Source of the DNA: Sebaldella termitidis ATCC 33386
GTDB taxonomy: Bacteria > Fusobacteriota > Fusobacteriia > Fusobacteriales > Leptotrichiaceae
Direction: 5' to 3'
DNA: 64,000 bases
NCBI RefSeq assembly: GCF_000024405.1
Contig: NC_013517.1
Coordinates: 310,001 to 374,000 of the forward strand
The translations under genes and the position numbers were made by a program. Positions 1-63,981 of this stretch are shown here, one piece after another; positions within the stretch are counted from its first letter, which is position 1, and every line of letters starts with the position of its first letter. A model generated the notes under the pieces. That model was not told the DNA's origin, ran no database searches, and saw nothing but the letters and a program-made list of their open reading frames with translations.

Positions 1-3000
1 TATATGATGATGTATGGAGAAACTTAGATGATACTTATACACTGACAGGAAACAGTAGTTTGATAACTAGACTGAATGAATGGATATTTTCAGAAGGCAG
101 ATCAAATATGCAGGGTTGGGGAATAAATCCTAAAGATGAACTTGATGACATAAATAATGATTTAGACTATAAGCTTTATTACGGGAATCTGACAAGCAGC
201 CAGCTTAATCCTACAAAAAATTATATGACACAGGTACTAACAGGATATATAGATACAAGCAGACTTGTAACAGAGGGCGGAAGAATATTGTCAGGAGGAA
301 ATCTGACACTTGATGTAATAGAACTGGAAAATGTGAATTCAAAAATAAGTTCAGGAGGTACATTAAGAATAACAGATAAGGTTCAGACAATAAAAAATGA
401 AACAACAGCTTCCACAATAAAAGTTTATGACGGTGAAGAACAGGTAAAAACATGGGAATTACACTGGACAGCAGGAAATGGAGATACAAGAACAGGAGCA
501 GCACTGGGAGTAAGAAGAGATTTAAAAACAGCAGGAAGAGATGTAAATATAGCGGACAGTGTATCAGTAATAGAAGGAAATAATGTGATAATAGAGGGGA
601 GCCCTGTAATAAGTAACGGATATGTTATTCAATCAGGAGCAGTAGTAGACCCAAGTACAATAACATCAAAAGATGTAGATGTAGATCTATATTACGATCC
701 TGTAACAGTACATGTGGACAGAACAGCAGTAATAGATATAATAACAACAGGGACAATACCATTTAATCCAGGAGTATTTAACAGTTCTGTAAGTAAGTTA
801 TTTTCGGAGAATAAAGATCCTTCATCAAAGTACTTAATGGAAACAAGATCACAATATATAGATTTATCAAGATTTTATGGAAGTGATTATTTCTTAAGCA
901 GAATAGGATATAATGAATCAAATGACTGGAATAATGCAAGAAGATTAGGGGATGCATATTATGAAACTAAATATATGAATAATCTTCTTTTGGAAACACT
1001 GGGAACAAGATTTATAAATGGAAAAGCAGATACAGAATTAATGAAAGAAATGCTTGATAATGCAGTGGCAACAAGCGGGGATTTGCAGTTAACAATAGGA
1101 ATAGCTTTAACAGGAGATCAGATAGCAGCATTGAAGAGTGATATAATCTGGTATGTGGAACAGGAAGTAAACGGGGAAAAGGTATTAGTACCACAGGTAT
1201 ATTTAAGTCAGGCAACATTGGAGAATATAAAGAGTCCTACAACAACAATATCAGCACAGGAAACACTTGCAATAAACAGCAGCAGTCTTGTAAATCAGGG
1301 CAGACTTGAAGGAAATACAGTATATGTAAATACAGATAATCTGATAAATAAGAGTGTGGGAGCATTAACAGCAGAGATAACAGGAACAAATATACAGATA
1401 GATGCAAAAAATGATATACTGAATATAGGAGCTGTGATAGCAGCTAAGGAAAATGTTGTATTAACAGCAGGGGGAACAATAAGCAATATAACAACTGGGG
1501 TACAGGTAATAGAACATGATAGATTAAGAGGGGAAGAAAGAAGTTATACAGCAGATAATATACAGAATGTAGGAGTGATAAGCTCAGGAGATACAACATA
1601 TATCAGTGGAGAAAACTATGTATCGAGGGGAGCGGTAACACAGTCAGAGGGAACAACATATATAGAAGCAGAGAAAGATATTTCAATAAATACAATAAAT
1701 CTGAGAGAATCAGAAAGAGAAGGCATAAAGAACGGTTATCAATATACAGAAGTAAATCAGAAATTAGGTTCGGAAGTAACAGGTCTTGATAATGTGATAA
1801 TGAATGCCGGGAATGATATAAGTATAAAGGGAAGTACGGTAGTATCAGATGGAACAGTACAGTTAACAGCAGAAAATAATATAAATATATCAAATGATAA
1901 GAATACAATGTATCATGAGGAAAAGGAAGAGAAGAAAGGAACATTTTCAAGTTATTACAGATATGAGACGGATTACAGTGAAAGTGCAGTGGGAAGTACA
2001 TTAATAGGGAATAATGTAATACTGGATGCAGGGAAAGATGTAAATATAAAAGCATCAAATGTTATAGCAGTAAAAAATGACAATATTCAAAACAGTGGTG
2101 GAAATATAATAGTAACAGCGGGAAATGATATAAATATAACAACGGATGATATGAATAATGAATACTCCTTGACAGAAAAGAGAAGTGGATTTAGTTCAAG
2201 CTTTTCAACAGGAGGCGGGGGTATATCAGCAGGAGTGAGTTACAGCAGAAGTAGTCTGGAGAATGAAAGAAACAGTACAACAGTAGCAGTGTCAAGCTTA
2301 ATGTCAGAAGGAAGTACAGTATTAGATGCAGGAAACAGAGTAAGAACAGAAGCAATGCAGGCTGATATTGGAGAGAATCTTGTAATAAGGGGAGTAAATG
2401 GGGTAGAACTTCTGGATGCCAAAGAAGTATATGAAGAAAAAGTAAAACAGAAAAGTACAAGTATTGGTTTATCAGTGAGTGTAGGTTCTACAGTAACAAG
2501 CTTCATAGATCAGGCAAATAATATGTATAATGACAAGGATAAATACGGTGCTACAAATACATCAGAACTTATAAATTCAGCAGGAGACGGTTTTACTTTA
2601 TTTAGAAGCGGAGTAAGTGCTTTTAATGATGCGCAGTCTATTTACGATAAACTGGTAACTGGAATACATCCTGCAAATGCCTTGGCAGGAATAACAGCAA
2701 ATGCTTCATTAAGTTTTAGCCAGAGTAGTTATGAATCAAATACAAATAGTACAACATCAGTAGCAGGAAATATAAATGTAGGAAAAAACTTTGTGATAGA
2801 ATCAGATGGTGATGTAAGACTGATAAATCAAAAAGTTAATGTAGGAGAAAACTTTATTGTAGATGCTAAAAATTTTGAAGCAAGAGCAGGGGAAAATACT
2901 TACAGTAATAATACAAAGTCAAGTTCATCAGGAGGAAATATAGGATATGACTTTGCTCAGAGAACAATGACAGGCGGAGTAAATGTATCAGGCGGAAAAT

Positions 3001-5303
3001 CAAATACAGATTCTAAATATTATGATAATACAATAATAAATGTAGGAGGTATATTCCAGCTTACAACAAAAGAAGACGCTTTATTTGCAGGAGCTAATGT
3101 AACAGCAGATAAAATAAACTTTGATATTGGAAGAGATTTGAGTATAATATCCTTACAGGATGAATATAAGTCAGAAGGAAAGAATTATGGAATAGGCGGA
3201 GGCTATAGTCAGAATAATACAACTACAAATAAGCCGGAACCGGGAGCATTTACAGGAAACATAAGTTATAGCCAAAATAATGCAGAAAGTAAATGGGTAA
3301 GTAATCAGACAAGTATAATAGCAGAAAATGGCGGGAATATAAAAGTAGGAGAAACACTGACAAATATAGGATCAATTATAGGAAGTCTGAATGCAGATGA
3401 AAAACTGAGTATAGAAGCTAATAAAGTAGTGGTTTCTAACCTTGAGGATTATAACAGGGGAGAAAATGCAGGGGTTAATGTAGGAGGCATAGGCTTTAAT
3501 AATAAGGCACCAATAGGACAGACAGGTGTACAGTACGGAAGCCATGATAAGGAACAGGAAAGTAATGCAACATTTGTTAATACAGAAGTGACAGAAGCAG
3601 GAAAGAAGCTGAATCTTGAGGAGCTTGGAATAAATACAGATATTAATAAGGCTCAGATAGTAACAAAAGATGAAGTGGTGGAACAGATAGATACAAATCT
3701 TCATACGGATTTATTAAATACAACAACAAGACAGCAGTTTATGGAGGATACAAGAAAAGCAGGACATGGAATACTAGATATAATAGATTCGGCAGGCAGG
3801 GATAACTTAAGATATGAAGAAGCCAGAACAGACAGATATGCGCAGTATTATATAGAAAAGAATCCTCAGATGGCAGAATTTATAAAAGATCCTGATAGTA
3901 AGAGTGCAGCTGATATTGAAAAACTAACAAAAGATTATATAAAGTATATGACAGGAAAAGATGTTGAGGTAATAATAGTAGCAACAGGAGAAGGTTCTGG
4001 ATATATAAGAGGGGATCAAAAAGGTAAAGGTAAAGATAACGTTTTTCTTTTAGATTTAAATGATTTAGCAAGTGGTATGAGTGTATCAAATTTATATGGT
4101 CATGAGCCTAATCATATAGATGACCATAGAAGAGGGAGAGAAGCAGGAGAAGAGATAGCTTCAAATGCTGCAGGAGACAGATTAAGTGAAATATTAGGTG
4201 ATAAAGGAAAAAGCAATGTTTTTGATATTGATAAATGGCTTGATAATAAAGACAATTTACAAGCAATTCAGGATGGGAAAAATACTCTTGACTCAGAATA
4301 TGATGGATATGAAGGAGAAAATAGTTCTTATTTGGATCAAAGAACAAGAGAAGCGGGAAGTATTGCAAGCACAAAATCGGTTGCAAGTAAAAAATTAGAG
4401 AATAAAAAAGCAGATTTAGCAAAGTTGACAAATGAATATCAACAAAAATGTTCAGGAAGACAATTAAGTGGTTGTAGTAGTATTTTGAATCAGATATCAT
4501 CTTTGGAAAAAGAAATAAAATATCTTCAGGGAGTAGCAACAACAGGTCAAGGTAGTGTTCATGATTCAGAAACTAAATCTCAAAAAACTCCAAATAACAC
4601 TCAAAATGCTGGCAATAAGCCTAGTAATAAACCTAATAATAACACTTCTTCAAAAGCAGAGGCAAATAGTGCTAAGAAAATTAAAACAAAAGAAGAATTA
4701 GTATCAGAAATGTACAGTAAAGGCTACACACCTGATCAGTATGAGATAAGAGAAGAAAAAGGCGGAGTGTTAAGAGTAGTACTTGATTCATACAAAACTC
4801 CGGATAATTTAAATTATGATGACACAAATGTAATAGTTTGGAATAAAGGTTTAGATATACCATTAAAAGTAGCAGATGCCTATTTAAAAGCAGATAATGC
4901 ATCAATGATATTAACACAAGGGCATTTGACAGATACATTTGGCCCAGTTCTTTCAGGAGGACTAATAAATAAATTTGGACCTAATTCAGGATGGGGAAGC
5001 GTAAAAGATAAGACTGAACTATCAGGAAATTCTAACTATAAAAAACTTACAAATGAAGAAATAAAAAAAGTGGGTTCTCTTTCGGAACAAAAAGACATAA
5101 GGGAATTACCAGGGAATTCTGAAGATGCTTTAAAATTTTTTCAAGCTCAAGTATCTGATTATAAAGAAGTAAAACCTGGTGTTTTTGTTGGAAAAGATGA
5201 AAATGGAATCACATTTACCTATAGAGCTCAATCAAAATCTGGTCCCCCGACTATTGATGTGAATGGAATAAAAGGAATAAGAAAAATTAAATTTAAAGAA
5301 TAG
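1..5303 (+). CDS. CdiA/FHA-like exoprotein, 3' part with C-terminal toxin (5' end outside window)
   Basis: The reading frame is open from the left edge (frame of base 3), so the gene is 5'-truncated by the window; more than 1760 residues are visible. The first part is beta-helix repeat sequence typical of filamentous haemagglutinin/CdiA proteins secreted by two-partner secretion (many INxGGxx and AGxDxxI units). A conserved block ending in HTDLLN (about 3700-3718) is shared with the orphan copy downstream, and everything after it is unique. That unique part contains a putative pretoxin region with HEPNHIDDH (4101-4127, HExxH type), an N/P/K-rich linker (about 4570-4680) and a C-terminal domain of about 200 residues ending in a GITFTYRAQSKSGPPTIDV motif. 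The constant stalk with a switched tip, followed by a small gene, is the CDI/polymorphic-toxin layout. The toxin activity is not identified; an RNase fold is only a guess. A CdiB-type partner would be expected upstream. Confidence 0.85.
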   Translation, partial: YDDVWRNLDDTYTLTGNSSLITRLNEWIFSEGRSNMQGWGINPKDELDDINNDLDYKLYYGNLTSSQLNPTKNYMTQVLTGYIDTSRLVTEGGRILSGGNLTLDVIELENVNSKISSGGTLRITDKVQTIKNETTASTIKVYDGEEQVKTWELHWTAGNGDTRTGAALGVRRDLKTAGRDVNIADSVSVIEGNNVIIEGSPVISNGYVIQSGAVVDPSTITSKDVDVDLYYDPVTVHVDRTAVIDIITTGTIPFNPGVFNSSVSKLFSENKDPSSKYLMETRSQYIDLSRFYGSDYFLSRIGYNESNDWNNARRLGDAYYETKYMNNLLLETLGTRFINGKADTELMKEMLDNAVATSGDLQLTIGIALTGDQIAALKSDIIWYVEQEVNGEKVLVPQVYLSQATLENIKSPTTTISAQETLAINSSSLVNQGRLEGNTVYVNTDNLINKSVGALTAEITGTNIQIDAKNDILNIGAVIAAKENVVLTAGGTISNITTGVQVIEHDRLRGEERSYTADNIQNVGVISSGDTTYISGENYVSRGAVTQSEGTTYIEAEKDISINTINLRESEREGIKNGYQYTEVNQKLGSEVTGLDNVIMNAGNDISIKGSTVVSDGTVQLTAENNINISNDKNTMYHEEKEEKKGTFSSYYRYETDYSESAVGSTLIGNNVILDAGKDVNIKASNVIAVKNDNIQNSGGNIIVTAGNDINITTDDMNNEYSLTEKRSGFSSSFSTGGGGISAGVSYSRSSLENERNSTTVAVSSLMSEGSTVLDAGNRVRTEAMQADIGENLVIRGVNGVELLDAKEVYEEKVKQKSTSIGLSVSVGSTVTSFIDQANNMYNDKDKYGATNTSELINSAGDGFTLFRSGVSAFNDAQSIYDKLVTGIHPANALAGITANASLSFSQSSYESNTNSTTSVAGNINVGKNFVIESDGDVRLINQKVNVGENFIVDAKNFEARAGENTYSNNTKSSSSGGNIGYDFAQRTMTGGVNVSGGKSNTDSKYYDNTIINVGGIFQLTTKEDALFAGANVTADKINFDIGRDLSIISLQDEYKSEGKNYGIGGGYSQNNTTTNKPEPGAFTGNISYSQNNAESKWVSNQTSIIAENGGNIKVGETLTNIGSIIGSLNADEKLSIEANKVVVSNLEDYNRGENAGVNVGGIGFNNKAPIGQTGVQYGSHDKEQESNATFVNTEVTEAGKKLNLEELGINTDINKAQIVTKDEVVEQIDTNLHTDLLNTTTRQQFMEDTRKAGHGILDIIDSAGRDNLRYEEARTDRYAQYYIEKNPQMAEFIKDPDSKSAADIEKLTKDYIKYMTGKDVEVIIVATGEGSGYIRGDQKGKGKDNVFLLDLNDLASGMSVSNLYGHEPNHIDDHRRGREAGEEIASNAAGDRLSEILGDKGKSNVFDIDKWLDNKDNLQAIQDGKNTLDSEYDGYEGENSSYLDQRTREAGSIASTKSVASKKLENKKADLAKLTNEYQQKCSGRQLSGCSSILNQISSLEKEIKYLQGVATTGQGSVHDSETKSQKTPNNTQNAGNKPSNKPNNNTSSKAEANSAKKIKTKEELVSEMYSKGYTPDQYEIREEKGGVLRVVLDSYKTPDNLNYDDTNVIVWNKGLDIPLKVADAYLKADNASMILTQGHLTDTFGPVLSGGLINKFGPNSGWGSVKDKTELSGNSNYKKLTNEEIKKVGSLSEQKDIRELPGNSEDALKFFQAQVSDYKEVKPGVFVGKDENGITFTYRAQSKSGPPTIDVNGIKGIRKIKFKE

Positions 5304-28261: not shown

Positions 28262-28286
28262 ATAGTTAGTTCTGTGAATTAACTAT
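28262..28286. promoter_or_regulatory. MarR operator, site 1 (before the EFR1 gene)
   Basis: A 25-bp dyad of form ATAGTTAnTTC-3 bp-GAAnTAACTAT, nearly identical to the site upstream of marR at 28751. Confidence 0.75.
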
Positions 28287-28318
28287 TTTTATAAATTTTG
28301 AATAAAAAATTTTCATTT

Positions 28319-28726
28319 TTACTCAATAACCAGACATAATAAATGTACAAGCTGTTTGTATTCCTCTTCTGTGAGTTTTTCCGCAATATATTTTTCAAGA
28401 TCATTATGTGCCAGACGACAGCTGTTAAAAATTTTCAGACCATTTTTGGTAAGCTTTATATAAAATGTACGCTTATCTGTCATGGACTGCTCTTTATAAA
28501 CAAGATTCTGTTTTATTAATTTATTTACAATAGCAGTTATTGCAGGCTTGCTCAAATTTAATTTCTGGGCCAGCTCTCCGTAAGTAGGAGACTCCATATC
28601 GCCGATGACATCAATATACTGAAAGAAATTTACATTAATATTTTCTGCGTTATATTTTTCCAGCTCATGTATTTTATAGTTTAAAAATCTTTTGGAAAGA
28701 ATTTCAATAATATCTGCAAGTTTCAT
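28319..28726 (-). CDS. MarR-family transcriptional regulator
   Basis: The 135-aa winged-helix regulator has SPTYGELAQKLNLSKPAITAIVNKL (recognition helix, about residues 47-71) and a wing KEQSMTDKRTFYIKLTKNG. It probably represses itself and the downstream flavodoxin-ferredoxin gene through the paired dyads. The ligand is unknown, and no cysteine-based redox switch is evident. Confidence 0.88.
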   Translation of the reverse strand: MKLADIIEILSKRFLNYKIHELEKYNAENINVNFFQYIDVIGDMESPTYGELAQKLNLSKPAITAIVNKLIKQNLVYKEQSMTDKRTFYIKLTKNGLKIFNSCRLAHNDLEKYIAEKLTEEEYKQLVHLLCLVIE

Positions 28727-28750
28727 AATTATTCACCTGTTTTTACAAAA

Positions 28751-28775
28751 ATAGTTAATTCATTGAACTAATTAT
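28751..28775. promoter_or_regulatory. MarR operator, site 2 (before marR)
   Basis: A 25-bp dyad matching site 1 at 20 of 25 positions. It covers the likely promoter of marR 25 bp before its start. Confidence 0.75.
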
Positions 28776-30490: not shown

Positions 30491-31168
30491 ATGTTTGAAA
30501 AAAAATTCAAAAAATACAAACAGACCTCGGATACTTTTCGAATAGGAATATTATTAAGTATGGCAGGGGGATTTACAGATGCCTATACTTTTGTTATAAG
30601 AGGAAATGTATTCGCAAATGCGCAGACAGGGAATATAGTTCTTTTAGGACTTAAACTCGTAGAAGCAAAATGGGGAGAAGCTGTTTTTTATCTTTTTCCG
30701 GTTTCGGCTTTTGTTCTGGGAATTTTAGCCGCCGAATTTATCAGGGCAAAACTTAAAGACAAGAAAAGAATACACTGGAGACAGATTGTCATTCTTATAG
30801 AAATTCTCGTATTGTTTTTCTCGGTCTTTGTACCTCAGGGAAACTATAATGTTGTTGTAAATATAGCAATTTCATTTATATGTTCGCTTCAGGTTCAGAG
30901 CTTCCGGAAAGTAAACGGTAATTTGTCTGCAACCACAATGTGTACAGGCAATTTGAGAAGCGGAACAGAGCAGCTGTATAAATATATAGTGCAGAAAGAC
31001 AGTGAGGCAAAAGAAAAATATATGATTTATTACGGATTAATACTGTTTTTTATAATCGGAGCAGTAATCGGAGCTCTTTTTACGGAAATACTGCGTGAAA
31101 AAGCATTATTTGTATGCTGCGGTATTTTAATAACAGTATTTGCTGTGATGTTTAGAGATGAAATGTAA
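30491..31168 (+). CDS. DUF1275 (YoaK-like) membrane protein
   Basis: This 225-aa protein has about six hydrophobic segments. The DUF1275 hallmarks are visible: AGGFTDAYTFVIRGNVFANAQTGNIVLLG near the N-terminus and FRKVNGNLSATTMCTGNLRSG in the middle. The function of the family is unknown; it is often a stand-alone inner-membrane protein. TTGGAGGAATACAG precedes the ATG. Confidence 0.85.
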   Translation: MFEKKFKKYKQTSDTFRIGILLSMAGGFTDAYTFVIRGNVFANAQTGNIVLLGLKLVEAKWGEAVFYLFPVSAFVLGILAAEFIRAKLKDKKRIHWRQIVILIEILVLFFSVFVPQGNYNVVVNIAISFICSLQVQSFRKVNGNLSATTMCTGNLRSGTEQLYKYIVQKDSEAKEKYMIYYGLILFFIIGAVIGALFTEILREKALFVCCGILITVFAVMFRDEM

Positions 31169-31365
31169 AATTATAAATTTTGAGATATAATTTAAAGGAA
31201 CAATGTGAAGAATAATGTCAGTAAAATGATGTTATTCTTTTTTAGTTTCTAGTATAAAGTAATTTACAGCATTGATAATGTCTGTCAATTAAAAGTCGAG
31301 AATAAAAAGCCAAAAATTTTAAAATAGAAAAATTATTAGTAGAAAATAGAAAAAGTTAAAATAAA

Positions 31366-31532
31366 ATTCGCACTTGTTGAATTTTACGAATATATTTATA
31401 TAAATATTGTACTAAAATAATTCTTTAAAGTCAATTTTAATATAAATAAAATATAAAAATAATAATTTGTCCGACTAATATTCAAGGCTTTATATGTCTA
31501 TTTTTCATTCGTAAAATTCAACAAATGCGAAT
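31366..31532. promoter_or_regulatory. putative invertible promoter element, copy 1
   Basis: Inverted repeats at 31366-31391 and 31507-31532 (26 bp, one mismatch) flank 115 bp. On the minus strand the centre holds TTGACT (31434-31429), 17 bp and TACAAT (31411-31406). A dyad TTTGTCCGACTAA lies at 31466-31478. A second element with the same layout is at 63817. The strong promoter points left, away from the secreted-protein/autotransporter operon that starts 46 bp after the right repeat. A weak rightward TTGTCC-17-TTATAT (31467-31495) is also present but is not conserved in the other copy. The layout fits a phase-variation switch in the OFF orientation; a MITE is the alternative. Confidence 0.65.
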
Positions 31533-31577
31533 ATTTAAATACATATATAGAGATTGTTATTTTGGAAGGGAGGTTTA

Positions 31578-31784
31578 ATGAAAAAGATTATAATTTTGAT
31601 GTCTATTATTGGGTGTTTTTCACTGGCAGCCAAAAAGAACGAAAAAACTCCTGAGATACCTGATATGAATGCACAAATGGAGAAAGCCGATAAAATAGAA
31701 AGCTATAGAGCCAAGAAAGATGTAGCATGGCATAAAACAGAATATAACAAGGTACTGAAATACCTTAACAAATCCAGAAAATAG
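31578..31784 (+). CDS. small secreted protein 1 of the autotransporter operon
   Basis: The 68-aa protein has a signal sequence (about 1-19, IIILMSIIGCFSLAA). The mature part is about 49 residues, lysine-rich and probably helical (MNAQMEKADKIESYRAKKDV). GGGAGG fixes ATG at 31578, not the ATG 24 bases upstream. It is the first gene behind the invertible-type element and is followed 8 bases later by the next small gene. There is no recognised family; it may assist or decorate the giant autotransporter. Confidence 0.7.
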   Translation: MKKIIILMSIIGCFSLAAKKNEKTPEIPDMNAQMEKADKIESYRAKKDVAWHKTEYNKVLKYLNKSRK

Positions 31785-31792
31785 GAGGCAGA

Positions 31793-32071
31793 ATGAAAAG
31801 GATGATTTTGATTTTTTCACTGTTAACACTGTCATTGATGGCTTTTGGCGAGGAAGTAAACGTAGACAGATCAGTGGAAGAAAGTATAACAAAGGACTAT
31901 GATCAGGACGGAGTTTATTCTTCATATGAAAAAGCTTTGAGAAGAGCTCAGGAGTCAGTATATGTAAAGCTTCCTGAAAAAAGAGGGTACTGGTATACAA
32001 TACTGGACAGAGTAAAAGCAGAGGAAGAGGAACTGATGCCGGAAGAAATTAACAGAATGAGAAGAAGGTAG
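31793..32071 (+). CDS. small secreted protein 2 with EF-hand-like loop
   Basis: The 92-aa protein has a signal peptide ending MAFGE (about residue 20). The mature sequence contains DYDQDGVYSSYE, which fits the canonical 12-residue calcium loop (D1, D3, D5, G6, S9, E12), followed by a helix EKALRRAQESVYVKL. The rest is charged (EEEELMPEEINRMRRR). A calcium-responsive role in envelope assembly is possible. AGGAGG lies five bases before the ATG. Confidence 0.7.
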   Translation: MKRMILIFSLLTLSLMAFGEEVNVDRSVEESITKDYDQDGVYSSYEKALRRAQESVYVKLPEKRGYWYTILDRVKAEEEELMPEEINRMRRR

Positions 32072-42380: not shown

Positions 42381-42431
42381 GAATTATAAAATATTAAGAG
42401 TCGGTTTATGCTTTGACAATGTAAAATAGAA

Positions 42432-42460
42432 TTGACTTTACGAGTTGTTTTTATTAAAAT
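42432..42460 (+). promoter_or_regulatory. promoter of autotransporter 2
   Basis: TTGACT (42432-42437), a 17-bp spacer and TAAAAT (42455-42460), the same hexamers as in the copy-2 invertible element. Transcription from here gives a leader of about 240 bases. No flanking long inverted repeats were found, so this one looks fixed. Confidence 0.6.
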
Positions 42461-42631
42461 ATAAGAGATAGTATAAAATCAATAAAATTAGTATGCTGAT
42501 TTTATTGTGAAAATAATTTCAATGAGAGGAGATAAGGTAAAGTAATTTCGAATTTAGCTAAATTATAAAGAGTTTGTGGTATATTTGAGAGAATAGTCAG
42601 AAAGTTTTTATAATTAAAGTATGGGGAAGGC

Positions 42632-42709: not shown

Positions 42710-45700
42710 ATGAAAACGAACAAAAAATTATTAGTATCATTTATGGCATTAAATGCGGTATTATCAACCGGTATAGAGGCTTCGGGAGCTTCGGCGCCGT
42801 CAAAATACGACAGAATGTATAATAATATGATAAAAAATCTTGATCAGAATAAATCTAACAGTAAAAATTACCAGATAATAGAGCAGGTACTTAATAAAAA
42901 AAACAAAGAGCTGAAAGATTTGTACATACAGAGTGATTATATCATAAAGCCGGAATATCTTGAATGGCAGGTATTCTTTTCGGGAGGTTATGAAGAATAT
43001 GGAAAGGGTGTAGATAACAGTTCCGATAATGCAAAGTACAGTTCAAAAGTAACAGGATATTATGATACCAGCGGAAATTATGTGGTTACCAGTGGGAATA
43101 AAGGAGGAACTTTAGGAAAACCATACCAGCCGCTGCAGACACCCAAGGAAATAAATCTGGGGGTAAATATACCAATCAGCGGAATCAGCCGTGATCCTTT
43201 GAATCTGACTATAAATCCTAAAACAGTCACTGTAGTGGCTCCAAGTCAGAAAACAGTACCGGCGCCTAACCCTAATGTAGTTCTTTTAAATCTCAGCGGT
43301 ATAGAAGTACCGACTGCTCCTGTTCCGCCTACAGGACTTGGAAGTTCGGGAATTATCATAAATCCGAATCAGATTTATTCGACTAATTCACAATTTACGA
43401 CAGGAGTAGGAACCATAACCGGTGGTACTTACGCCATAGATTCTGCACCATACAGCAGTTTATATACATTTACGACAAATAATGAAACTTTAAATTTTAC
43501 AGGAAATATAGATATTAACGGAAATACGGGAGTAATTGTGAGTAATAGCGGACCGACTACTATAACAGGGGCTTCCATTACCAATGATTCAACAATGACT
43601 GTGAAATCCAGCGGTTCAGGGCTGGGAGGATTTCATTCAAACAATAGTACAGCTGGTTATTTGGATTTTATAAATAATAATATACTTGATATAGAGTATG
43701 TTTCAGGTTCAGGTGCTACACAAAGTCTGTTTTTTTACGGGAATATAAACTTGAAAAATAATGGAACCATAAATTATGTAAATAATGACGGCGGAACAAA
43801 GGCTTTATATTCTATGTGGAATTCCTCTCCGGCGGATCCTAATCCGATGAGAGTAGAAAACAACGGAACAATAAACATAATTGGAAATTCAAGTTTAAGT
43901 TATTCAAGTACTGTTATGGCACACCATTTCGGACATTTGACTTCTACAGCCCTCGGGCAGCATACGGTTATAAATAACGGGACAATAGATCTGACAAATG
44001 CTCTCGGTTATCTGCAGGATTATTCTACCGGTGTTTATGATGCTTCAGGCGGCGGAATTATGAATGTGAGAGAAAATTCTGTGGGTATTGAGCTGACGTT
44101 AACAGGGAATTCGGAAAATATTTTTAACAGTTCAACATTAAAAGTGGGAACAATAAATGTTTACGGATCTACTAATACTGGAGGACAGTATAGTAAAGCT
44201 ATAAACATGAGTCTTAACGCATTTCCAAATGTAATAGTAAATATTTCCGACGGTGAAATAAATCTGGAATCAAATTCAATGGGAATTATAACGAATATTC
44301 CGGGTACTCAGACTATAAATAATTCTGCTGAAATTAATATATCGGGAGAAAATTCTTACGGAATAATAACTTATAATAATTCGGCCAGTGCCGGAAGTAT
44401 TGAAAATACCGGGGATATAACACTGGATGTTAATAATACATCAAAATTAAGTGCGGGAATTTTTCACCAGATAGCTCCCTCATTTGTAAATAAAGGGAAT
44501 ATATATGTAAAATCAACAGGAAGCAACGCTGAAGGAACTATAGGGATTTTGCTGTCACAGGGTGCAAAATTTACAAATGACGGCGGCGGAACGAAAGTAA
44601 TAAGTGTGGACGGAAGAAAAGCAACAGGAGTGTTTGCTAATCAAAATACCACTAATACAATAAAAAATACGGCAGTAAAAGTGGCTAACAGCGGAATAGG
44701 CTTTTTCTCATATAACGGCTCTGATATTAAGCTTGAGAATATTACAGCAGAAGCATCTGCCGGAGGAATATTATTTTATTCTTCCTCTACACCTTCAAAT
44801 TCTACAATAACATTTGTAAATTCTTCATCAGCAACGGTAAAAGACGGAGGAACTGCTTTTTATGTAGACGGACCTCTGTCAATGATTCCGACCTCTTATG
44901 TGAATTTGAATAATCTTAATTTGAAAATGGAGGACGGCTCTACGGTATTCCTGCTTGACAGTCCGGGGACATACTCGATAGGAGCTCTGCCGACAGCTTC
45001 TATGGCAGGATTAAATATAGATCCTTCATCAGGGAATTATAAAGATGTAACAATAAACAGAGGAACTATTAATATTGATAATGTAGGCGGAAATCAGGTC
45101 TTTGATCTGGATAATCCTAACGACGCACTTAATAAAAATAGTTTTTATTCTTCGAATCTTAATCTGATAACAGGGAGTACTATACAAGGCAGCGGAAGCG
45201 GTCAGCTTGCAATGGGGCAGACTTCTTACACGGGTGCTGCTTCCAATGCATTGGTAACGCTGACTAATGGCGGAACTATACAGCTTAGTGGTGCATCATC
45301 AGTCGGGATGTATTCTAATTACGGAACTCTTAATAATAATACAGCAATAAACGTTACAGGGACTGACAGTGTGGGAATGTATGGCGAAAACGGAACAGCG
45401 GTTATAAATTCGGGTAGTATTACGATAGGAAATAAAGGTGTAGGAATATACGGGATTTCAAATCAGAATATTTTATCTCCTGCATCATACGGAGATCAGA
45501 AAGTAAATATAACGAATAATACTTCTATAGTTTCCAACGCGGGGACAGCAGGAACAGTGGGAATATATGCCAATAATAACGCAGGAACAACAGGGAATAA
45601 TCTGATATTTGGCACAGGGTCAGTTATAAATCTCGGAGCCAGTGACAGTGCAATAGGTGTATATGCGAATCAGATTGATAATGTTCAGGCTCGAGGGGTA

Positions 45701-48700
45701 ATAACTGTTGGAAGCAACGGGATCGGGATGTATGCAAATAACAGTAATATTACTTTAAACAATTTTACAATAAATTTGAACGGTGATAATGCTCTGGGAT
45801 ACTATATAGAAGGAAACAGCTCTTCTTTTACAGGAAACGGGACAATAAATATAGATGGTCAGAATGTTACTTTGTTTAATATAAATTCAAACAGTCCGGC
45901 TGTAGATTTCAGCGGAATAACAGTGGGGACAGTTACAGCCGGTTCTAATTACACGCTCGGAAGTCTGACTAACGGAAAAATGACTTATGCTTCAGATGCA
46001 AGGCTGGCTACAAACGGAACAATGTTAAACGGAAGAAATACTAATATTTATTTAAACGGGACTTCAGATATAAAAGCAGAAGCCGGAGCAACAGGTGTGG
46101 TAGCTGTGGCACTGGACGGGCAGTATACTGGCGGAGCTCCTATTACACCGGGAGTAGACGGAAAGAATGACGGGCAAATTATATTAGGAAACAGCTCTGT
46201 AGGCTTATACGGAAAAAATGATGCAAGATTTGAAAATACTCATATAATAACAGTAGGAGATGATTCTGCCGGAATATATACGGACGGAGCGCTTGCAAGT
46301 ATTAAGAATACAGGAACAATAACAATTGGTAATAATTCACAGGGACTGTATCTTAAGAATGGAGATACAATAGATAACGGAGGATCAATATTAAGTTTGG
46401 GAATAAGTACAGTTGGTATTTTTGCGGATAATGTAACAAATCCCGTGATAAATACCGGTATAATAGATTTATCCGGCGATAAATCAGTGGGAATTTATAA
46501 AACTGGTGCTGTTAATTCTATTTCAAATAACAATATTATAAAAATAGGAGATTCATCTGATTTGAATGATCCGGGCATAGGAATATATTCTAATACTGCA
46601 GGGGATATAATAACAAACTCCGGAACTATAGATACCGGGAAAAATTCAATAGGGATATATGCAGAAGGCGCAGCAGTAAATCAAAATAACATACTGTCAG
46701 TCGGAGCAACAGGAACTGGTATATATACAAAAGGCGGGACAGTAACTCTGGGAGCCGGAAGCAATATAACAGTGGGTTCTAATGAATCAGTAGGTGTATA
46801 CGGAACTAACGGAACACATATAACTAATAACAGTACAAACGCAGTTAATATAAATAACGGAGGATACGGCTTTATACTGGAAACTGGATCTCTTCTGGAC
46901 AATCACGGGATACTGTCATTAAACGGAAAAGGGACAGGAGTGTATTCTGACGGATTAAACACTGTAAATAACTATACAGGAGCCGATATAAACATGTCAG
47001 GTGATAATAATATAGGTATTTATATGGTTTCGGGCGGTATTGTAAATAATGATGCAGATATAAACGGTGCTGCTGGAAAATCCAATATAGGAATATATAA
47101 CAAAAACGGTACGATTAATAATATAGGAACTATAAATGTAGGAAATTCAGTACTTGTATATAAGTCAGACGGAACAGTGGATTATGACAAAAGCGGCTAT
47201 GCAGTGGGAATATACGGCGACGGTTCTTATATAAATAACACAGGCAATATAACTGTAGGAGAGAACGGAATAGGGCTGTATACCAGAAATAACCCGGCAG
47301 CAGTGGTAAATAAAGGCAATATAACTGGAACAGGAAAAGGTGCTGTTGGTTTATTTGTAGATAACGGGGTAGTGGAAAATAATCTTGGTACTACAATAAC
47401 AATGACAGGCGATGATTCGATAGGAATGGTGGCTAATAAGAACGGAACAATAATAAATAACGGAGATATAATAATGTCTGGTAATAATGTATCCGGAATG
47501 TTTGCCAACATAAATTCTCATTCTGTAAATAACGGGACAATTGATATGACAGGAGCAACAGGTGACAAAAGTACGGCATTTTTATTAGGGGCAGGTTCGA
47601 CTTTTGAAAATAACGGGACATTACTTCTGGGATCAAATGCCGTTATATCAGGTGTGGCGGGAGAAACTTACAAAATACCGAGTATAGTAAACGGAGGTAT
47701 AATTTACTCAGACGGTGCACTGGCTGCAGACGGAATATCTCTGGCAATAAAGGTAAACCCTGAAACTGTAGTTTATCAGTCGTTATCTTCAGGTCCGCAG
47801 TTTACAGCTAACGGAACTTCGATAATAGCTGATACTCTTACTACAAGCAAGCCTATAGTTGTACTTCCCGGATTTGCAGACGGAACTAATGCTAATGTAT
47901 ATAAGATAGAAAATGCAGTAGTGGCTTCCGGCGGAAATTACGAATTTGTAAGCGGATCGTTATTATGGGAAGCAACTCCTGAAGCAACAGGTACAGGAGC
48001 AAATGTATATATGGAAAGAAAAAGCTTTACGGAATTTACTGACGGATTATGGTTTGAGGATTTTGGAAACGCTCTTGAGAAAAATTTCCTTGGTTCTAGA
48101 GGAGATGCAATGAAAATTTACAATAAAACAGGTTATATTGAAACAGAAGAAGATTTCAGACAGATAATGGGAAGTCTCGCAGGAAATGTGTACGCAAATA
48201 TGAATCAAAGAGAAAATGATATAGCCAGAACATTGGAAAATTCAATGCTTACTTTACATGAATCACCTAATAATACAAAAGAAAATGTAAAAATAAATAT
48301 TATAGGCGGAAAAGGGAAAAATAAAGAAGAAACAGACGGAGTTACGCCGTATGATTATACAACAGCAGGAGTTCTGGCATTAAGAGAGGTCGAACGTACA
48401 TACAGACATACATTTGGTTATTCATTGGGATATCTGCATACAGGATTTGAATTTAAAGATGGTAATGAAAGCGAAGAGAAAGCAGATACAATTCAGGTCG
48501 GAGCACATAATAAATACAGAGCAGGCGGCTGGGAACTGAGAAATGATCTTACAGGAAGAGTAAGCTTCCATAATGTGGACAGAAATATTGACTGGGGATC
48601 ATCGCTTGGAAAATCGGAAATGAACGGGACATATGAAACATACAGCATAACAAGTGATAATATACTTGGAAAGAAATTTGAGATTGGTAAAAAAACAAGT

Positions 48701-49129
48701 ATAATGCCATATGGCGCATTCAGGGCAATGTATGTAACAAGACCGACATTCAGCGAAAGCGGTCTGGAATCTCTTGAGGTAGAAGGAAATGATGCGTGGA
48801 GTGTAAAGCCGAGAGCAGGACTGGAACTGTCAGGTTCACTGCCGCTGGGAAGCAAAGCAGTCTGGCAGCTAAAGGGAACTTTGGATTTTGCTTATGAATA
48901 CGAGCTTGCAGATCTGAATGAAAGAGAAAAAGCAAGATTAACAGCGATAGAAAGCGGTTATCACAAACTTGCAAAGCCGCAGGATGAAAAAGGAATTTTC
49001 AGAACAAAAGGAATGCTGGGAATAGCTGTAGAAGACAGATATGGATTGTTTTTAACCGGTGAATACTCAACAGGAAATGACAAAGAAGATGATTATAGAA
49101 CCGGATTAATACTTAAAGCAGTATTCTAA
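42710..49129 (+). CDS. giant type Va autotransporter 2 (2139 aa)
   Basis: The signal peptide covers about 1-24. The shared N-terminal module follows (RMYNNMIKN, KPEYLEWQVFFSGGYEEY, TGYYDTSGNYVVTSG), then a Pro-rich linker (about 180-215), a beta-helix passenger with repeated SVGIYxxG and NNGTI units, and a C-terminal barrel (about 1855-2139) ending in LKAVF. The barrel is very close to that of autotransporter 1 (NGTYETYSITSDNILGK, GNDAWSVKPRAG), while the passenger is divergent. GGGAGGAACA precedes the ATG. It is transcribed alone, with a long leader. Confidence 0.92.
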   Translation: MKTNKKLLVSFMALNAVLSTGIEASGASAPSKYDRMYNNMIKNLDQNKSNSKNYQIIEQVLNKKNKELKDLYIQSDYIIKPEYLEWQVFFSGGYEEYGKGVDNSSDNAKYSSKVTGYYDTSGNYVVTSGNKGGTLGKPYQPLQTPKEINLGVNIPISGISRDPLNLTINPKTVTVVAPSQKTVPAPNPNVVLLNLSGIEVPTAPVPPTGLGSSGIIINPNQIYSTNSQFTTGVGTITGGTYAIDSAPYSSLYTFTTNNETLNFTGNIDINGNTGVIVSNSGPTTITGASITNDSTMTVKSSGSGLGGFHSNNSTAGYLDFINNNILDIEYVSGSGATQSLFFYGNINLKNNGTINYVNNDGGTKALYSMWNSSPADPNPMRVENNGTINIIGNSSLSYSSTVMAHHFGHLTSTALGQHTVINNGTIDLTNALGYLQDYSTGVYDASGGGIMNVRENSVGIELTLTGNSENIFNSSTLKVGTINVYGSTNTGGQYSKAINMSLNAFPNVIVNISDGEINLESNSMGIITNIPGTQTINNSAEINISGENSYGIITYNNSASAGSIENTGDITLDVNNTSKLSAGIFHQIAPSFVNKGNIYVKSTGSNAEGTIGILLSQGAKFTNDGGGTKVISVDGRKATGVFANQNTTNTIKNTAVKVANSGIGFFSYNGSDIKLENITAEASAGGILFYSSSTPSNSTITFVNSSSATVKDGGTAFYVDGPLSMIPTSYVNLNNLNLKMEDGSTVFLLDSPGTYSIGALPTASMAGLNIDPSSGNYKDVTINRGTINIDNVGGNQVFDLDNPNDALNKNSFYSSNLNLITGSTIQGSGSGQLAMGQTSYTGAASNALVTLTNGGTIQLSGASSVGMYSNYGTLNNNTAINVTGTDSVGMYGENGTAVINSGSITIGNKGVGIYGISNQNILSPASYGDQKVNITNNTSIVSNAGTAGTVGIYANNNAGTTGNNLIFGTGSVINLGASDSAIGVYANQIDNVQARGVITVGSNGIGMYANNSNITLNNFTINLNGDNALGYYIEGNSSSFTGNGTINIDGQNVTLFNINSNSPAVDFSGITVGTVTAGSNYTLGSLTNGKMTYASDARLATNGTMLNGRNTNIYLNGTSDIKAEAGATGVVAVALDGQYTGGAPITPGVDGKNDGQIILGNSSVGLYGKNDARFENTHIITVGDDSAGIYTDGALASIKNTGTITIGNNSQGLYLKNGDTIDNGGSILSLGISTVGIFADNVTNPVINTGIIDLSGDKSVGIYKTGAVNSISNNNIIKIGDSSDLNDPGIGIYSNTAGDIITNSGTIDTGKNSIGIYAEGAAVNQNNILSVGATGTGIYTKGGTVTLGAGSNITVGSNESVGVYGTNGTHITNNSTNAVNINNGGYGFILETGSLLDNHGILSLNGKGTGVYSDGLNTVNNYTGADINMSGDNNIGIYMVSGGIVNNDADINGAAGKSNIGIYNKNGTINNIGTINVGNSVLVYKSDGTVDYDKSGYAVGIYGDGSYINNTGNITVGENGIGLYTRNNPAAVVNKGNITGTGKGAVGLFVDNGVVENNLGTTITMTGDDSIGMVANKNGTIINNGDIIMSGNNVSGMFANINSHSVNNGTIDMTGATGDKSTAFLLGAGSTFENNGTLLLGSNAVISGVAGETYKIPSIVNGGIIYSDGALAADGISLAIKVNPETVVYQSLSSGPQFTANGTSIIADTLTTSKPIVVLPGFADGTNANVYKIENAVVASGGNYEFVSGSLLWEATPEATGTGANVYMERKSFTEFTDGLWFEDFGNALEKNFLGSRGDAMKIYNKTGYIETEEDFRQIMGSLAGNVYANMNQRENDIARTLENSMLTLHESPNNTKENVKINIIGGKGKNKEETDGVTPYDYTTAGVLALREVERTYRHTFGYSLGYLHTGFEFKDGNESEEKADTIQVGAHNKYRAGGWELRNDLTGRVSFHNVDRNIDWGSSLGKSEMNGTYETYSITSDNILGKKFEIGKKTSIMPYGAFRAMYVTRPTFSESGLESLEVEGNDAWSVKPRAGLELSGSLPLGSKAVWQLKGTLDFAYEYELADLNEREKARLTAIESGYHKLAKPQDEKGIFRTKGMLGIAVEDRYGLFLTGEYSTGNDKEDDYRTGLILKAVF

Positions 49130-63816: not shown

Positions 63817-63981
63817 TACGTATTTGTTAAATTTTACGAATAAATGATTATGAATATTTTACTAAATTTGAGCTTTAAAGTCAATTTTAATAGAAAAAAA
63901 ATTTTTTTATAATTATTTGTCAGACTAATATTTGATGCATGAAAGAATAATTTTTTATTCGTAAAATTTAACAAATACGAA
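63817..63981. promoter_or_regulatory. putative invertible promoter element, copy 2
   Basis: Inverted repeats 63817-63843 and 63955-63981 (27 bp, one mismatch) flank 111 bp. On the minus strand the core has TTGACT (63884-63879), 17 bp and TAAAAT (63861-63856), at the same position as in copy 1. The dyad TTTGTCAGACTAA (63916-63928) is also conserved. The promoter points left, away from whatever lies beyond the window. Confidence 0.65.

Follow-up and report, generated by a model that had tools for sequence, protein, structure and literature searches.

A predicted invertible promoter ahead of a RadD-type autotransporter operon in Sebaldella termitidis and its relatives across the genome

Results

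A repeat-flanked promoter precedes an autotransporter operon

We analyzed a stretch of 64,000 nucleotides from Sebaldella termitidis ATCC 33386 (the window; NC_013517.1, G000:C1:310001-374000, in a genome of 4,486,650 bases on three contigs), in which a short intergenic element at 31366-31532 lies ahead of an operon in which genes for three small exported proteins precede one for a RadD-type autotransporter (Table 1). As the initial annotation had stated, the right repeat of the element ends 46 bp before the first gene, whose start codon is at 31578. None of the three small proteins matched a Pfam family, and the large protein matched the RadD model NF049908 with an E value of 2e-77, the best stretch being the C-terminal 534 model positions and the match falling below the whole-protein cut-off; its match to the autotransporter model fuso_auto_Nterm was likewise below cut-off. 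The gene order of a RadD operon, in which small envelope-protein genes are followed by an autotransporter gene, is present, with the RadD match being partial.

Table 1. Positions of the element, the operon behind it, and related features (window coordinates unless a contig is named)
Feature	Position	Strand	Remarks
Left (operon-distal) recombination site, 24 bp	31367-31390	+	TTCGCACTTGTTGAATTTTACGAA; TTCG-N16-CGAA form common to the elements of G000, G001, and G002
Right (operon-proximal) recombination site, 24 bp	31508-31531	-	Inverted, one mismatch relative to left site; site starts 141 bp apart
Predicted invertible interior, 117 bp	31391-31507		Reversed relative to orthologous G002 locus L066
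Promoter core AATTGACTTTAAAG-N6-TTTAGTACAATA	31405-31436	-	-35 at 31429-31434, -10 at 31406-31411; points away from operon
GTCNGAC palindrome	31469-31475		39 bp upstream of promoter core; putative activator operator near -72
Operon gene 1, small exported protein, 68 aa, possible lipoprotein	31578-31784	+	Ribosome-binding site GGAAGGGAGG before start; 46 nt from right arm
Operon gene 2, small exported protein, 92 aa	31793-32071	+	
Operon gene 3, small exported protein, 88 aa	32088-32354	+	
Last operon gene, RadD-type autotransporter adhesin, 2756 aa	32367-40637	+	Partial NF049908 RadD match
Second copy of the element	63817-63981		Heads next autotransporter operon, which begins past the window end; apparently also OFF
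Candidate tyrosine recombinase, 190 aa	C1:432484-433053		PF00589, E value 3e-20; invariant R52, H135, R138, H162, Y171
aa, amino acids.

The window was screened for inverted pairs with arms matching at a minimum of 23 of 26 positions and separated by 60 to 600 bp, and this revealed three pairs, compared with none in 60 Markov shuffles of the window. The arms at 31366-31391 and 31507-31532 enclose 115 bp and agree at 25 of 26 positions, in line with the single-mismatch repeats annotated initially; the other two are the second copy of the same element and a probable pair of MarR operators. Between the arms, the minus strand carries the strong promoter that had been annotated, TTGACT (31434-31429) followed by a 17-bp spacer and TACAAT (31411-31406), which matches at 10 of 12 positions and was joint best within 31150-31650, while promoter scoring revealed no rightward promoter of comparable quality between the right arm and the start codon. 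Inversion in silico moved TACAAT exactly to 31487-31492, the position foreseen for it, from which the promoter would read into the operon. Thus arranged, with inverted repeats around a short intergenic segment and an internal promoter that would serve the adjacent gene after inversion, 31367-31531 is very probably a site-specific invertible promoter (inverton), and the sequenced orientation is well supported as the OFF state for the operon at 31578.

The interior is reversed at two orthologous loci

The window locus and its orthologue in a second species (G002:C319, locus L066; JAITVW010000241.1, metagenome-assembled genome [MAG] TD116_bin61) are collinear over 2.2 kb at 80% identity, and the interior matched in reverse only, with 86% identity and an alignment score of 78 versus 17 unreversed. 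At this locus the promoter points toward the operon, no operon-proximal site is left, and its distal counterpart is degenerate, so the promoter, judged by its sites, is fixed in the ON direction and is a natural locked-ON form. The copy on the S. termitidis plasmid (C2:53827-53991) was compared with its orthologue G002:C7, whose flanks are collinear and 91% and 93% identical. Reversal raised the identity of the 117-bp interior from 78.6% (score, 19) to 91.5% (score, 97), and the G002:C7 element has two perfect sites and a promoter toward the operon. The orthologue of the window locus in G001 has the same orientation as the window.

Both orientations at one locus were thus seen between species, at two loci. 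A comparison between different species establishes that inversion has happened but says nothing of its frequency. The initial annotation had left room for a single orientation in all related genomes, or for random insertion as with a miniature inverted-repeat transposable element (MITE); what we found was both orientations across species and copies at the heads of genes and operons.

Nine related elements share one site form and one promoter

Further copies, for which a search had been proposed, were located by a 221-bp query together with pattern and similarity searches. The genome holds nine elements of this kind, with 24-bp TTCG-N16-CGAA sites or close variants around one conserved promoter. 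Of the copies identified, six are full-length relatives, one of which lies on the 54-kb plasmid, and the promoter points away from the downstream gene in all six; three further repeat-flanked copies differ in arm sequence. From start to start, the sites are 141 bp apart in 10 of the 14 pairs listed and 142 to 143 bp apart in the rest. Most copies stand 27 to 51 bp ahead of a gene led by a ribosome-binding site, close copies of the 68-amino-acid gene head several other operons of this kind, and a putative lipoprotein gene follows the ninth element (601 kb). Among 60 relatives, the paired-site pattern occurred in G000, G001, and G002 only, all of one genus, with few control hits; the plasmid collection searched gave no match, and a scan of genome contigs gave the G002 contig JAITVW010000241.1 only.

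Two observations concern individual copies. G001 carries an additional paired-site element (G001:C181:373-535), whose site centre is clearly distinct. Aligned with window positions 31532-31831 and the adjoining sequence, the operon at 605 kb (L009) is 97% identical just past the switch, 85% inside it, and 73% upstream, a pattern that may reflect a recent operon duplication or gene conversion.

Repeat-flanked and repeat-less promoters face opposite ways

The fusobacterial autotransporter N-terminal model had 49 matches in the genome, three of them above cut-off, and we inspected every upstream region. Among these 49 genes, repeat-flanked promoters point away from the gene in seven cases and toward it in one (1054 kb), whereas strong repeat-less promoters point toward it in all six cases and away in none (Fisher p=0.005, the duplicated operons not being fully independent). 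That the strong repeat-less relatives face autotransporter operons supports the inverton reading offered in the initial annotation.

The gene-facing element (L019, 1054809-1054974) has the autotransporter 0.9 kb off, with a second, repeat-less promoter closer to that gene. On its other side lie a ribosome-binding site, a 19-amino-acid open reading frame, and a protein with an HNH-associated repeat, and L065 of a second species has the same arrangement on both sides; the HNH-repeat protein could be a phase-variable DNA-binding regulator. At L014 (G000:C1:1014033-1014150) and L068 (G002), in both species, a relic left site adjoins a promoter directed at the autotransporter operon, which looks like an old inverton locked ON.

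The promoter module includes a conserved palindrome

The pattern AATTGACTTTAAAG-N6-TTTAGTANAATA had 14 genome copies at up to three mismatches, and the reversed control pattern had none. In most invertible and fixed copies, GTCNGAC lies 39 bp upstream of the core (36 to 38 bp in three). Most repeat-less copies likewise have the surrounding motif, TTTGTCNGACT, which contains TTGTCC, upstream of their promoter, on the side opposite to the gene served. A transcription start 7 nt past the -10 would centre the palindrome near -72, a position common for class I activators. The second autotransporter of the window (42710-49129) is faced by a weaker copy of the promoter (42430-42461, four mismatches), also without repeats.

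Site signature and candidate recombinase

Tyrosine recombinases need an identical overlap of 6 to 8 bp in the partner sites, and serine enzymes exchange at 2 bp. In 14 site pairs, within-pair mismatches numbered 0 at positions 10 to 18 and 24 elsewhere, while elements differ from one another at positions 10 to 18; random re-pairing of the sites gave a mean of 31.5 mismatches at these positions and a minimum of 12. The sites combine symmetric arms with a central overlap identical in partner sites, and this within-pair identity despite variation among elements points to a tyrosine recombinase.

The search for a recombinase that the initial annotation had suggested gave a mixed outcome: the genome encodes eight PF00589 proteins and four PF00239 (serine) proteins, among them a 190-amino-acid candidate, and the distribution of this candidate matches that of the elements imperfectly. 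The protein is in the FimB/FimE size class and resembles Fim-type enzymes (190 to 200 amino acids) in consisting of a catalytic domain only, with the R..H-x-x-R..H..Y series. Its identity is 92% in G001, 75% in G003, and about 46% in a single genus from a neighbouring family; other genera of its own family, represented by 29 searched genomes, yielded no close homologue. The surrounding genes are in synteny in G001 and, in part, in G003. On this circumstantial evidence, we consider the protein the best candidate for the invertase. No inverted repeats were found beside the recombinase genes, and a search for dif sites, addressing Xer involvement, gave a signal no different from the control.

Alternative readings

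Some observations weigh against an inverton that is active today and served by the 190-amino-acid enzyme. An intact element occurs in G002 (86% complete), where no 190-amino-acid recombinase was detected, and the recombinase occurs in G003 (87% complete), where no element of the TTCG-N16-CGAA paired form was found, both being MAG-quality assemblies. In the closed genome, nearly all copies are oriented alike, and switching today may therefore be infrequent or favor OFF; the state of the element at 1054809-1054974, which faces an autotransporter 0.9 kb off, is ambiguous.

Inversion could be the work of another recombinase, either the housekeeping XerC/XerD pair or another integrase, and we regard this as a possibility of some substance, although not the one we favor. 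The sites are Xer-core-like in form, with symmetric arms and a short centre, seven further PF00589 proteins and the four serine recombinases are encoded, and the intact G002 element stands without a detected 190-amino-acid enzyme in its genome. However, Xer-type enzymes would be expected in all relatives, whereas the elements occur in one genus only among the 60 genomes, and a multi-base identity block at the site centres disfavors enzymes with a 2-bp exchange.

A former switch frozen in this strain, with the resident recombinase inactive on the element and the operon permanently OFF or read from another promoter, appears rather unlikely. The predominance of copies facing away would fit such a state, inversion was seen between species only, and the eroded, locked forms at sister loci show that freezing occurs. 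Against this, the nine site pairs are near-identical within and different between pairs, an identity that drift would erase, and a full-length small tyrosine recombinase is kept at a syntenic locus.

We consider it very improbable that the region is fixed and bidirectional, with a rightward promoter within the element serving the operon and the palindromic arms binding a regulator as its operators. A rightward TTGTCC-17-TTATAT can be drawn, and the initial annotation had offered it as a weak basal promoter, but this candidate was rejected: the -10 (TTATAT) is not kept among copies, TTGTCC belongs to the conserved GTCNGAC palindrome, which keeps its distance from the leftward promoter, on the upstream side, in gene-facing repeat-less copies, and orthologues carry a reversed interior. 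A MITE-like transposable element that lies upstream of the operon by chance, a reading prompted by multiple similar copies with terminal inverted repeats, was rejected as the least credible of all, in that most copies hold a fixed position before a gene rather than varied insertion sites (target duplications were not searched systematically), orthologous loci retain the element while its interior flips, and the same promoter stands at other operon heads without repeats.

Other features of the window

The third inverted pair (28262-28295 and 28742-28775) consists of TAGTTAATTC-like palindromes around a MarR-family gene (28319-28726, minus strand); these are probably two operators of that regulator and not an inverton. 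At the left window edge, 60-5303 encodes a 1747-amino-acid protein with haemagglutinin repeats (PF13332).

Discussion

The site architecture, the conservation of the promoter, and its opposite orientation at two orthologous loci are established here by sequence comparison, and we infer ongoing switching in cells and transcription from the promoter. In the mechanism that we propose for this inverton, a tyrosine recombinase would act on the two 24-bp inverted sites and flip the 117 bp between them, with the 190-amino-acid protein serving as the putative invertase in trans. In the present orientation the promoter would fire leftward, away from the operon, which is the OFF state; in the flipped orientation, with the -10 at 31487-31492, transcription would be expected to start near 31499, and the ON transcript would cross the right site into the genes for the three small exported proteins and the RadD-type autotransporter.

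More tentatively, and with the odds somewhat against so broad a scheme, one trans-acting recombinase and one GTCNGAC activator may jointly run a genome-wide adhesin repertoire, in which a single module, part invertible and part fixed, would serve many of the 49 giant autotransporters, and lineages would turn switches constitutive by capture of the ON orientation and repeat loss, as at the G002 orthologue of the window locus. RadD-type autotransporters are the main adhesins of Fusobacteriota, oral fusobacteria included. Nine switches, one shared promoter, and natural fixed and locked-ON relatives make the surface diversification of a termite-gut bacterium directly testable, and the same set of forms makes the gain and loss of phase variation testable.

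In Escherichia coli, the fimS, hyxS, and ipuS switches use Fim-type tyrosine recombinases, and ipuS drives the autotransporter UpaE (PMC6083910). The element described here resembles them in its short inverted repeats, its internal promoter, the predicted ON/OFF control of a surface protein, autotransporters included, and a candidate small tyrosine recombinase of about 190 to 200 amino acids. The E. coli switches, however, are usually found next to their recombinase genes, and their core repeats are short (7 bp at ipuS), whereas the nine copies in S. termitidis are dispersed, have one site form, one promoter, and a constant spacing in common, and lie away from the candidate recombinase gene.

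In Bacteroides fragilis, the serine recombinase Mpi works on capsule loci; in contrast, the site pattern here indicates an enzyme of the tyrosine family, and autotransporter operons of a member of Fusobacteriota are the targets. Mpi is described as a global invertase of multiple invertible promoters (Coyne 2003, as cited in PMC11868660), and with this system and the invertons of gut bacteria (PMC11892184) our elements would share many promoter inversions, related sites, and surface structures under one genome-wide system. RecV of Clostridioides difficile controls several switches scattered in the genome (PMC5903667), the likeness being one tyrosine recombinase acting in trans on several such switches, as we propose here. 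The RecV switches have mostly unrelated repeats and differ in target function, while S. termitidis repeats one module that carries its own promoter.

The closest counterpart of the operon is radABCD of Fusobacterium nucleatum (rapA-rapB-fad-I-radD; PMC7023056), in which, too, a RadD-type autotransporter comes after three small envelope proteins; the RadD profile match here is partial. CarSR reportedly controls the F. nucleatum operon (PMC12186487), and neither that report nor the literature searched describes promoter inversion there; the S. termitidis operon family, in contrast, is multicopy and would be inverton controlled. We found no description of invertons in Sebaldella, Fusobacterium, or Fusobacteriota in the literature searched. 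Set beside these systems, the mechanism is of a known kind, and an adhesin-wide inverton family in Fusobacteriota appears undescribed in the literature searched. As far as that literature shows, what is new is the phylum, the connection with RadD-type autotransporter operons, a promoter module common to the elements, and a natural series in which invertible, eroded, and fixed forms all occur.
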